From: an uncultured Fodinibius sp.
GTDB taxonomy: Bacteria > Bacteroidota > Rhodothermia > Balneolales > Balneolaceae
Length of the DNA: 64,000 nt
Assembly: GCA_913057775.1 (NCBI GenBank)
Contig: CAJXOG010000009.1
Coordinates: 62,001-126,000 of the forward strand
Direction: 5' to 3'
Shown: one piece after another, positions 18,475 through 21,525 of the stretch
How the letters are laid out: every line of letters starts with the position of its first letter
Position numbering within the stretch: position 1 is the stretch's first letter
Notes under the pieces: model-generated
Told to the model about the DNA's origin: nothing
The model's database searches: none
What the model saw: the letters and a program-made list of their open reading frames with translations, nothing else
Program-made: the position numbers and the translations under genes

Positions 18475-20421
18475 ATGTCTGACAATTATCGCGCCTTAAC
18501 ACGTACCTATCGTCCCACTTCTTTTGACGATATTGTATCTCAAGAGCATGTAAGCAGCACACTTAAAAATGCAATTAAGAAAAACCGACTGGCCCATGCA
18601 TATATGTTTTGTGGTCCGCGAGGGGTGGGTAAAACTACCATGGCACGTGTATTGGCCCGAACGGTAAATGACATTGATCACGAAGTAGATGGTGAATCGT
18701 TAAATCAGACGCTCAACGTTGTTGAAATTGACGCGGCTTCGAACAACAGTGTAGATGATATTCGCGACCTGCGCGAACGCGTTCGTATTCCTCCGCAAAA
18801 TGGACGCTATAAAATCTACATTATCGACGAGGTTCATATGCTCAGCAAGTCGGCGTTTAACGCCTTGCTGAAAACGCTTGAAGAGCCGCCCGATCATGTG
18901 ATTTTTATTTTTGCCACAACCGAACCGCACAAGGTGCTTCCGACCATATTATCGCGTGTTCAACGGTTTGATTTTAAACGTATCAGCGTTGACCAGATCG
19001 TGGAACGCCTAGCCAATGTAGCTGAGAATGAAGGTATTAATATCGATGAGGAATCGCTTCACGTGATTGCTAAAAAAGCGGACGGAGCACTTCGCGATGC
19101 CCTTGGATTAATGGACCAAGCTATCGCTTTTTGCGGCAACAACATTCAGCATGACGAGCTGCTCCGGGCGCTCAATGTAGTAAGCACCGAGCGCATGTTC
19201 GACTTTATGAATGCGGTAGAAGCGCAGGATGCCAGTCACGGACTGGAATTGATCAACGAGTTGCTACAGGAGGGCTATGATATTCAGGAATATTTAGTCG
19301 GATTAACAGAGCACTTGCGGAATCTTTATGTGGCAAAGAGTTCGGAGCAGATGCACTTGGTCGAAGCATCTCCTGATACTAAAAAACGCTATCGAGAGTC
19401 ATCGAAAGCTTTTACAGAAGATGACTTGATGCGGATGCTTCACATTTTGAGTGAGGCCCAGTACAAGATCAAGGAAGCCCATCAGCCTAAAATCCAGTTT
19501 GAGATAACGCTCCTTAAACTTATCCATATGGAGCGCACGCAAAAGTTAAATACTTTGCTAACCGAGCTGGAGCAGTTAAAAAAAAAGCTAAATAGTACCG
19601 ACTTAGCTGCATCGACTGAGACAGGCTCGATCGGAGAGGTTTCGAAAAGTGAAAAACAGCAACCAAGTACTGAATCAGCCTCACCTAATTCGACCTCGGA
19701 TTCAAATGGGCAGTCCGATATGCAAGAGGAACAGTTGGAGTCTCATCCAAAAGAATTATCCGAGGAATCAGCGGATCCAAAAGAGAACATGTCAACCCCG
19801 ACCGACTCGAATGGTCAAACTTCGCCCAAAGAAGAATCAACATCCGAAAAACAACCGCTAACAAGTGAGGCAGCGGCTAACGAAGAGGAACAGCAGGCTG
19901 ATGATGAAGACGAGTTTGAAAACCTGTTTGGAGCCTCATCACTGGGCAATCCCAAGCCAAATAGTGTTGATGAGAATAAGCCATCGAAATCAAAACAAAG
20001 TACAGAAAGCGAAACGGCAACCGCGACTAAACGTGCTCCCAAAGATGTTTCCCTTCAAGAAATAAATGACTGTTGGGATGATTATTTAGATAATCTCCGT
20101 CAGCACGTACCCCAAATGCTTTACTTTCAGATGCAGCGTGTTGATCCTGTTGAATTAAAAAATGGGGATCTGAAGCTTCGGGCTAATGATGACTTTGCTA
20201 AAAAGATTGTGGATGAAAATCGGCGTCGACTTGGTAAACTTTTGGAGGACGAAATCGGGGCTTTTCTCAACATGACCTGCATTGTTAAAAAGCAGGAAAA
20301 GAGCGGTGAGGATTCAATGAGTCCATATGAGCGGTTTAAAAAGCTTCAAGAACGCGATCCTACGATCAAGAAGCTGGTTGAACTCTTTGGCGCTGAATTG
20401 GATTATAATTTAAATCAGTAG
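18475..20421 (+). CDS. dnaX: DNA polymerase III subunit tau/gamma
   Basis: Clamp-loader ATPase that opens the sliding clamp and couples the replisome. 648 aa: Walker A GPRGVGKTT (47-55), DEVHMLS (118-124), ATTEPHK and SRVQRF (sensor/arginine-finger region), domain III to about residue 370, then a low-complexity acidic Ser/Glu/Gln linker (375-525) and a C-terminal tau domain. The four-Cys zinc module between Walker A and DAASNNSVDDIR is absent. An A9 run at codons 368-371 is a probable slippage/frameshift site giving a ~371-373-residue gamma form (separate entry). Followed by ybaB and recR in the conserved order. Confidence 0.97.
   Translation: MSDNYRALTRTYRPTSFDDIVSQEHVSSTLKNAIKKNRLAHAYMFCGPRGVGKTTMARVLARTVNDIDHEVDGESLNQTLNVVEIDAASNNSVDDIRDLRERVRIPPQNGRYKIYIIDEVHMLSKSAFNALLKTLEEPPDHVIFIFATTEPHKVLPTILSRVQRFDFKRISVDQIVERLANVAENEGINIDEESLHVIAKKADGALRDALGLMDQAIAFCGNNIQHDELLRALNVVSTERMFDFMNAVEAQDASHGLELINELLQEGYDIQEYLVGLTEHLRNLYVAKSSEQMHLVEASPDTKKRYRESSKAFTEDDLMRMLHILSEAQYKIKEAHQPKIQFEITLLKLIHMERTQKLNTLLTELEQLKKKLNSTDLAASTETGSIGEVSKSEKQQPSTESASPNSTSDSNGQSDMQEEQLESHPKELSEESADPKENMSTPTDSNGQTSPKEESTSEKQPLTSEAAANEEEQQADDEDEFENLFGASSLGNPKPNSVDENKPSKSKQSTESETATATKRAPKDVSLQEINDCWDDYLDNLRQHVPQMLYFQMQRVDPVELKNGDLKLRANDDFAKKIVDENRRRLGKLLEDEIGAFLNMTCIVKKQEKSGEDSMSPYERFKKLQERDPTIKKLVELFGAELDYNLNQ
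19569..19631 (+). promoter_or_regulatory. Probable dnaX programmed slippage/frameshift site
   Basis: Nine consecutive A (19578-19586) inside TTA AAA AAA AAG, which includes the E. coli-type heptamer A AAA AAG. A -1 shift, or one extra A in the mRNA, reads Ala-Lys then TAG at 19593-19595; one A fewer reads Ser then TAA at 19589-19591. A GGAG (19569-19572) lies 8 nt before the heptamer. Downstream potential stems: AGCTAA (19586-19591) with TTAGCT (19603-19608), and ATCGA (19611-19615) with TCGAT (19627-19631). The truncated product would end just after AAA+ domain III, as gamma does. Confidence 0.7.
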
Positions 20422-20502: not shown

Positions 20503-20847
20503 ATGAATCAGAATATGGCTAACATGTTCGGGAAGTTTTCCGAGCTGCAAGAAAAAGTGGAAGAAGCAAAACAGGAACTTTCGAAACTTGAAGTTGAGGC
20601 TGAAGCCGGCGGTGGTATGGTTAAAGTTAAAGCCAACGGCAAGCGTCAAATTTTGAGTATCAAACTGGACAAGGATGTTATTGATCCTGAAGATGCTGAG
20701 ATGATGGAAGATCTGGTGGTGGCCGGTGTGAATAAAGCGCTGGATAAAGCCGAAGAAGCTGCCCAAGAACGGATGCAGGAAACCTATAAAGATATTCTTC
20801 CCGGCGGCGGTATGCCTGGTATGGATCTAAGCAAATTGGGGCTTTAA
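20503..20847 (+). CDS. ybaB: YbaB/EbfC nucleoid-associated protein
   Basis: Small DNA-binding dimer found next to dnaX and recR in most bacteria. 114 aa: N-terminal coiled helix (FGKFSELQEKVEEAKQEL), then the typical VEAEAGGGMVKVKANGKRQIL beta region split by short loops, and a Gly/Pro-rich tail (GGGMPGMDL). ATG start, 81 bp after dnaX; recR follows after 69 bp that carry a palindromic repeat. Confidence 0.95.
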   Translation: MNQNMANMFGKFSELQEKVEEAKQELSKLEVEAEAGGGMVKVKANGKRQILSIKLDKDVIDPEDAEMMEDLVVAGVNKALDKAEEAAQERMQETYKDILPGGGMPGMDLSKLGL

Positions 20848-20916: not shown

Positions 20917-21525
20917 ATGGAAGGAACATCAGAAATTCTGGAGCAGGCTATCGAGCAGTTGGCCAAGCTTCCGGGAACGGGACGTAAATCAGCGCGGCGC
21001 ATTGCACTGTTTCTACTGAAGCAGGATGACGAGTCGGTGGTCAATTTGGCAGAGGCGTTAATAAGTCTCAAAAAGTCTATTACTCGCTGCTCTACCTGTG
21101 GCGTGATTAGCGACGGAGATCCCTGCTCTATTTGTCAAAATACAAAACGTCAAACTGGACAAATTTGTGTTGTTGAAGAATCGCAGGATGTATTTCTGAT
21201 TGAAAAAACCAATGAGTTTCGCGGCCGCTATCACGTACTCGGAGGCGTTATTTCTCCTCTCGATAATATTGGTCCTGATGATGTTCGTATTAAACAGCTT
21301 ATGCAGCGGATCAACGAGGATGACGAGCAGATTGACGAAGTTATTTTGGCGCTCAATCCCGATTCGGAAGGCGAAGCAACATCCTACTATATAAACAAGT
21401 TGCTTAAACCTTTTGATGAGGTAAAAGTAACGCGCATTGCATACGGCATTCCGATGGGAACGGAGCTCGAATTTATTGACGAAGCCACGCTGGGACGTGC
21501 CTTTGCAAGCCGAAATACGTTTTAA
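20917..21525 (+). CDS. recR: Recombination mediator RecR
   Basis: Partner of RecO/RecF in loading RecA at gaps. 202 aa: helix-hairpin-helix LAKLPGTGRKSARRIA (about residues 14-29), zinc finger CSTC...CSIC (54-70 region), then the Toprim domain with VVEESQDVF and LGGVISPLDNIGP. ATG start. Last gene of dnaX-ybaB-recR. Confidence 0.97.
   Translation: MEGTSEILEQAIEQLAKLPGTGRKSARRIALFLLKQDDESVVNLAEALISLKKSITRCSTCGVISDGDPCSICQNTKRQTGQICVVEESQDVFLIEKTNEFRGRYHVLGGVISPLDNIGPDDVRIKQLMQRINEDDEQIDEVILALNPDSEGEATSYYINKLLKPFDEVKVTRIAYGIPMGTELEFIDEATLGRAFASRNTF

Follow-up and report, generated by a model that had tools for sequence, protein, structure and literature searches.

An A9 run in dnaX of an uncultured Fodinibius sp. 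that is functional by comparative tests and most likely acts through transcriptional slippage

To date, the best-matching described system is dnaX of Thermus thermophilus, for which transcriptional slippage at a run of nine A (A9), with stops in both other frames, has been reported (Larsen et al. 2000, as described in PMC1088944, PMC5009743, and PMC3711429). Features of the Thermus type also include mRNAs that vary in their number of A and a ratio of gamma to tau near 1:1. Antonov et al. (2013) listed 17 dnaX genes divided into two ORFs, from 12 genera; 12 of the genes contain poly-A, and slippage was proposed (PMC3711429). Nine of this set have A10, and Chloroherpeton and two Chlorobium have A7–A9 (PMC3711429). 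Beyond the known cases, most bacteria keep no dnaX frameshift signature according to a 2012 review (PMC3290774), and whether gamma has a real role is described as disputed (PMC5009743). In the open-licence literature searched, PMC3711429 was the sole paper found that names dnaX, Bacteroidetes, and slippage together, and no account of family-wide or phylum-scale dnaX slippage was found there.

The window, i.e., the whole 64-kb stretch of DNA analysed here, contains a dnaX gene followed by ybaB (20503–20847) and recR (20917–21525). Its product has the Pfam domains DNA_pol3_delta2, DNAX_ATPase_lid, and DNA_pol3_gamma3. The features of the site are as follows.

18475–20421, + strand: dnaX, DNA polymerase III clamp-loader subunit tau/gamma; a 648-codon ORF whose zero frame gives the 648-aa tau
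19177–19545, + strand: clamp-loader domain III, residues 235–357 (Pfam PF12169, E 1.6e-15)
19569–19572, + strand: GGAG, a Shine-Dalgarno (SD)-like motif 8 nt before the heptamer, judged incidental
19578–19586, + strand: putative A9 slippage run (TTA AAA AAA AAG), codons 368–371, read from the sequence
19581–19587, + strand: A_AAA_AAG heptamer, identical in sequence to the E. coli dnaX shift site
19587–20421, + strand: tau-only part, with a conserved C-terminal stretch at about 20014–20421
19589–19591, + strand: TAA stop in the frame entered by losing one A or by a +1 shift; predicted 371-aa gamma
19593–19595, + strand: TAG stop in the frame entered by gaining one A or by a -1 ribosomal shift; predicted 373-aa gamma

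The first A of the run is the third base of codon 368, and the run starts 11 codons past domain III, the last domain common to gamma and tau. The TAG ends 9 nt and the TAA 5 nt after the end of the run. An mRNA with ten A, equivalent to the -1 frame, is predicted to end in ...KKKAK-TAG (373 aa, 42.7 kDa), one with eight A in ...KKS-TAA (371 aa, 42.4 kDa), and one with eleven A in Ser-stop (372 aa); mRNAs with nine or twelve A retain tau (predicted 73.4–73.6 kDa). The short forms end 14–16 residues beyond domain III. Direct reading and recomputation agree exactly with what an earlier note on this DNA had placed here, namely the position of the A9 at codons 368–371 with its A AAA AAG, the Ala-Lys-TAG (-1 or A10) and Ser-TAA (+1 or A8) endings just after domain III, and the GGAG 8 nt upstream of the heptamer.

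To judge from sequence comparison, this A9 is likely to be a programmed slippage site that gives both tau and gamma, most probably by way of RNA polymerase as in Thermus dnaX. RNA polymerase would slip on the A9 while copying dnaX, which would result in mRNAs with 8, 9, 10, 11, or more A. Those with nine A, or 9+3n, would be translated into full tau, and the remaining mRNAs would lead the ribosome to a stop no more than 9 nt past the run. The product would be gamma, which comprises the AAA+ and domain III parts of the clamp loader and lacks the tail of tau.

Counting both strands, the 3.11-Mb genome has 14 A9 matches, which amount to 12 distinct tracts; Markov models of order 1–3 trained on the window predict 238–499. 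The dnaX run is the sole run of at least nine A or T in the window. Seven of the 12 tracts, dnaX included, lie in the sense strand of ORFs of at least 240 aa; an A9 inside a gene is thus rare, not unique. Sense-strand A9 tracts were noted in a 527-aa ORF whose translation reads as a penicillin-binding protein, with the run near the N-terminus (L294, G000:C13), and in a 589-aa ORF that reads as a metal-transport ATPase (L284, G000:C2).

Within the genus, dnaX was found in 12/12 genomes, and exactly A9 is present at the site in all 12. The family sample comprised 92 genomes, five of which had no dnaX match at E ≤ 1e-60; the remaining 87 genes were all read. An A9 or A10 in the same phase is present in 80 of the 87 (68 A9 and 12 A10), covering 20 of 21 genera, and all seven genes without it belong to one genus, g19. 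A run of at least nine A between -45 and +240 nt of domain III occurs in 83 of the 87, from which three g19 genes with the A9 elsewhere in the linker were excluded to give the 80. One of the 80 (G036) has an A10 about 36 codons deeper in the linker, 140 nt after domain III. The encoded residues vary (LKKK, VKKK, VKKN, LKKN, IKKN, AKKK) while the run stays, and it is kept across gene GC contents of 0.37–0.62 in the family, reaching 0.65 among the named loci described below. Given the protein and the codon usage of the gene itself, the probability of an A9 has a per-genus median of 0.004–0.17; the product over 20 genera, 10^-25.3, assumes independent genera and is hence overstated. Since the genomes are related, the conservation counts themselves are non-independent.

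The stops next to the run are conserved as well. Tau is zero-frame in 78 family genes, and 72 of these have a stop in each shifted frame no further than 30 nt from the run; when the downstream codons are resampled synonymously, 18.5 are expected. Taken separately, the inserted-A (-1) frame stops within 12 nt in 65 of the 78 (30.2 expected), and the deleted-A frame stops within 30 nt in 73 (32.0 expected). In a comparison within the same genes, both-frame stops occur at 73 of 81 run sites, three g19 genes included, and at a rate of 0.186 elsewhere (10,270 positions). A -1 ribosomal shift would gain nothing from stops in the deleted-A frame, which are expected if mRNAs of either length occur. 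Run, phase, length, and both-frame stops are thus conserved in the family beyond what the protein and codon usage require. The earlier note had proposed programmed slippage to a gamma-length DnaX, to be checked by looking for the A-run and off-frame stops in relatives; both are retained (80/87 and 72/78), and this conservation strongly supports the proposal.

An A-rich tract could also arise from a Lys-rich linker under A-leaning codon usage and persist by chance or inheritance, with no gamma made. AAA is indeed preferred for Lys (a share of 0.67 in the family genes that bear the run), and murD offers an example of persistence: the in-frame A9 of murD in this genome (G000:C2:137485-138855, L335) is kept in 9/12 of the genus, so that an A9 can persist inside a single genus by descent alone. 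Across the family (86 of 92 genomes matched, 51 read), an A9 or longer run is present in 13 of the 51 murD genes. A recD-like A9 is kept in 1/12 of the genus. Elsewhere in the run-bearing dnaX genes, further runs of at least nine A number two in 156,542 nt in the family and none in 100,649 nt of the named loci. Retention of the dnaX run throughout the family, across amino-acid changes and the whole range of GC content, the excess of both-frame stops (72 of 78), and the existence of genes with tau out of frame (in genus g20, the named loci, and the same-phylum sample) all count against such an origin, which is very improbable. In the murD genes of G005 (L346) and G034 (L390), which belong to different genera, the frame is off by one nucleotide at the A9 or within about 12 nt after it, and standard decoding would truncate a normally essential enzyme. 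These breaks are either homopolymer errors or frame breaks that would be tolerated through slippage on the A-run.

An HMM built on the last 135 aa served to locate the frame of tau in relatives. Genus g20 belongs to this family too, and its genomes (2/2) have a zero-frame stop 6 nt past an A10; the C-terminal domain of tau is found in the frame reached by gaining one A (+1A), with E values of 9.2e-30 and 1.3e-28; tau should therefore need the slip in this genus. Among 80 named loci, mostly from Bacteroidota, 55 have A9–A11, and tau is in the zero frame in 42 of these, in the +1A frame in 11, and in the -1A frame (one A lost or two gained) in one; the remaining locus (L079), whose contig ends soon after the run, has no tau match and was left out of the frame count. 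In a same-phylum sample, A9–A11 is present in 82 of 90 genomes, the 90 being the best 30 and 60 hand-picked among the matches listed (389 of 392 genomes matched), with a lean toward relatives of the Chryseobacterium query. We take these 90 genomes to be Bacteroidia. Of the 82, 53 have a zero-frame tau, 26 a +1A tau, and two a -1A tau; one (L518), without a tau match, is unassigned and was omitted from the frame count, and L515, with A6, likewise lacks a tau match. Each of the two remaining frames has a stop within 30 nt in 45 of the 53 zero-frame genes and in 26/26 of the +1A genes. The three -1A genes (L054, L482, and L500) represent two lineages, L482 and L500 being alike, and their other two frames stop within 14 nt.

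A FastTree phylogeny built from the N-terminal parts of 379 DnaX sequences requires 17 or more changes of the zero-frame product among the 217 run-bearing genes, versus a mean of 39.2 with shuffled labels (lowest of 30 shuffles, 36), and 19 or more changes in the presence of the run. A10 is the commonest run length whatever the frame (63/90 in the same-phylum sample), which makes it unlikely that sequencing errors account for most of the frame changes; single changes may be homopolymer errors in individual assemblies. As A9–A11 is kept at the border of domain III while the frame of tau moves, selection would act on having both products and be indifferent to which of the two comes from standard decoding. 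On balance, we lean slightly toward programmed RNA polymerase slippage in dnaX being widespread in Bacteroidota, Balneolaceae included, with selection on both products and a gamma that matters.

The same predicted outcome could be reached by a -1 ribosomal frameshift at A_AAA_AAG, aided by the upstream GGAG and by downstream stems, an account that fits the identity of the heptamer with that of E. coli dnaX, its presence in 12/12 of the genus, and the frequent -1-frame stops within 12 nt of the run (65/78 family genes versus 30.2 expected). It is nevertheless unlikely to be how gamma is made. An AAG third codon occurs in 12/12 of the genus and in seven genes of five other genera, but the base after the run is C in 48 of the 67 family A9 genes read, giving AAC. 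AAC in this position is reported to make a less shifty site in E. coli (PMC5009743). Moreover, the run is conserved at more than heptamer length and so are the +1-frame stops, neither of which a -1 heptamer needs. A -1 ribosomal shift accounts for the +1A frame only, and cannot reach tau in the -1A frame of L054, L482, and L500. The heptamer as the conserved unit was rejected in view of the AAC codons, the retained run length, and the retained stops in both frames. Given the heptamer in 12/12 of the genus, a ribosomal share may exist in this species.

The proposed stimulators do not stand out either. SD-like motifs upstream of the run are found in 35 of 80 family genes by raw count, versus a rate of 0.14 at other positions, and stronger SD 5-mers in 19 of 80, versus 0.04 at other positions of the same genes. 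Once the protein is fixed, the excess is small (32/80 versus 25.6 expected, a difference in the counts only, with ten of the 32 genes from one genus), and an SD stimulator was rejected as a candidate. Downstream RNA structure was assessed in 34 family genes, with at most three per genus, and none stood out: the mean fold z was -0.01, and control windows gave -0.10 (n=62). In the window gene, the short stems that the earlier note saw after the run are present in a trivial sense, but the fold of the 60 nt following the run is not more stable than that of dinucleotide shuffles (z = 0.09). The hint of an E. coli-type -1 frameshift in the earlier note is thus not supported by the SD counts or by a stem-loop, and its parallel with Thermus fits better than that with E. 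coli, as the full A9/A10 length and the +1-frame stop are kept. Before the first ATG, SD-like motifs occur in three of 43 window ORFs of at least 200 aa, which is the rate at random positions; the count treats the first ATG as the start codon, an assumption that may fail for some ORFs. This genome seems to initiate mostly without SD. Ribosomes of Bacteroidia, not necessarily of Balneolaceae, are reported not to recognise SD sequences (PMC9976891). The E. coli type also involves a single tRNA-Lys that reads both AAA and AAG; here, the tRNA-Lys anticodon-loop pattern was found at 20 places, at none of which ARAGORN gave a tRNA gene.

Ribosomes might instead slide on the A-run in either direction to the out-of-frame stops, leaving the mRNA uniform. 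Stops on both sides of the run would suit such sliding, and poly(A) is documented as a sequence on which ribosomes slide (PMC4363877). Cell-free work with E. coli ribosomes, however, describes strong sliding on A11 and little on A9 or A10 (PMC4363877). In that system, much truncated product was obtained from A11 and little from runs of nine or ten A (PMC4363877), and A9 is the rule in the family (68/80). Sliding is quite improbable as the source of gamma. RNA polymerase slippage, the preferred reading, accounts for why the entire run and not just a heptamer would be needed, for the stops in both shifted frames, and for the genes with a -1A tau. We infer that slippage would take place in the living cell, mainly during transcription, and would supply gamma in useful amounts.

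The signature thins out beyond the family. In the order, 120 of 128 genomes matched and 120 genes from 119 genomes were read (G122, cut before the site, was left out); in its other families, a run of at least nine A lies within 240 nt after domain III in seven of 33 genes and close to it in four of 33. For the class, 229 of 244 genomes matched, and 102 genomes outside the order were searched again, with 90 read. No such run within 240 nt after domain III was found in these 90 dnaX genes, which hold three runs of at least nine A further downstream; their GC richness (median 0.61) may have a share in this absence. As the seven g19 genes and most genes from the other families of the order are without the run, gamma is not indispensable. 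The g19 genes (L178, L180, L181, L183, L184, L190, and L191) have an A6–A8 run about ten codons upstream of the usual place (TTA AAA AAG or AAA ...), with a -1-frame stop three codons on in six of the seven. This run may mark a change to a shift site like that of E. coli, or may be due to chance.

Collectively, the comparative tests indicate that the dnaX run is functional, and its mechanism is most likely transcriptional. The signature held by the family and found in 82/90 of the same-phylum sample, with frames shifting while the run stays, argues for selection for both products. Many relatives are thus on offer for testing the role of gamma, and dnaX frames of about 370 codons in Bacteroidota need not be broken genes.

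Compared with the described systems, the window gene resembles E. coli dnaX in its heptamer, in a -1-frame stop within a few codons, and in the same gamma/tau outcome, but differs from it in having no supported SD stimulator and no stem-loop, and in the conservation of run length and +1-frame stop. With the two-ORF dnaX genes it shares a poly-A run at the gamma/tau junction. In those genes, standard decoding yields gamma and a slip is required for tau, whereas the window gene has the opposite arrangement and is open for 648 codons; the two-ORF arrangement, with a zero-frame stop after the run and tau elsewhere, is present in g20 (G089 and G090). If the nine A10 genes of PMC3711429 are from Bacteroidota, as may well be, some of the wider picture would already be in print. 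The likeness to Thermus dnaX extends to the sense-strand A9, tau in the zero frame, nearby stops in both other frames, and a shorter predicted gamma; the differences are that the gene belongs to another phylum and that slippage here is predicted. The site would thus belong to the known Thermus-type dnaX slippage, and its probable wide distribution is the interesting part.
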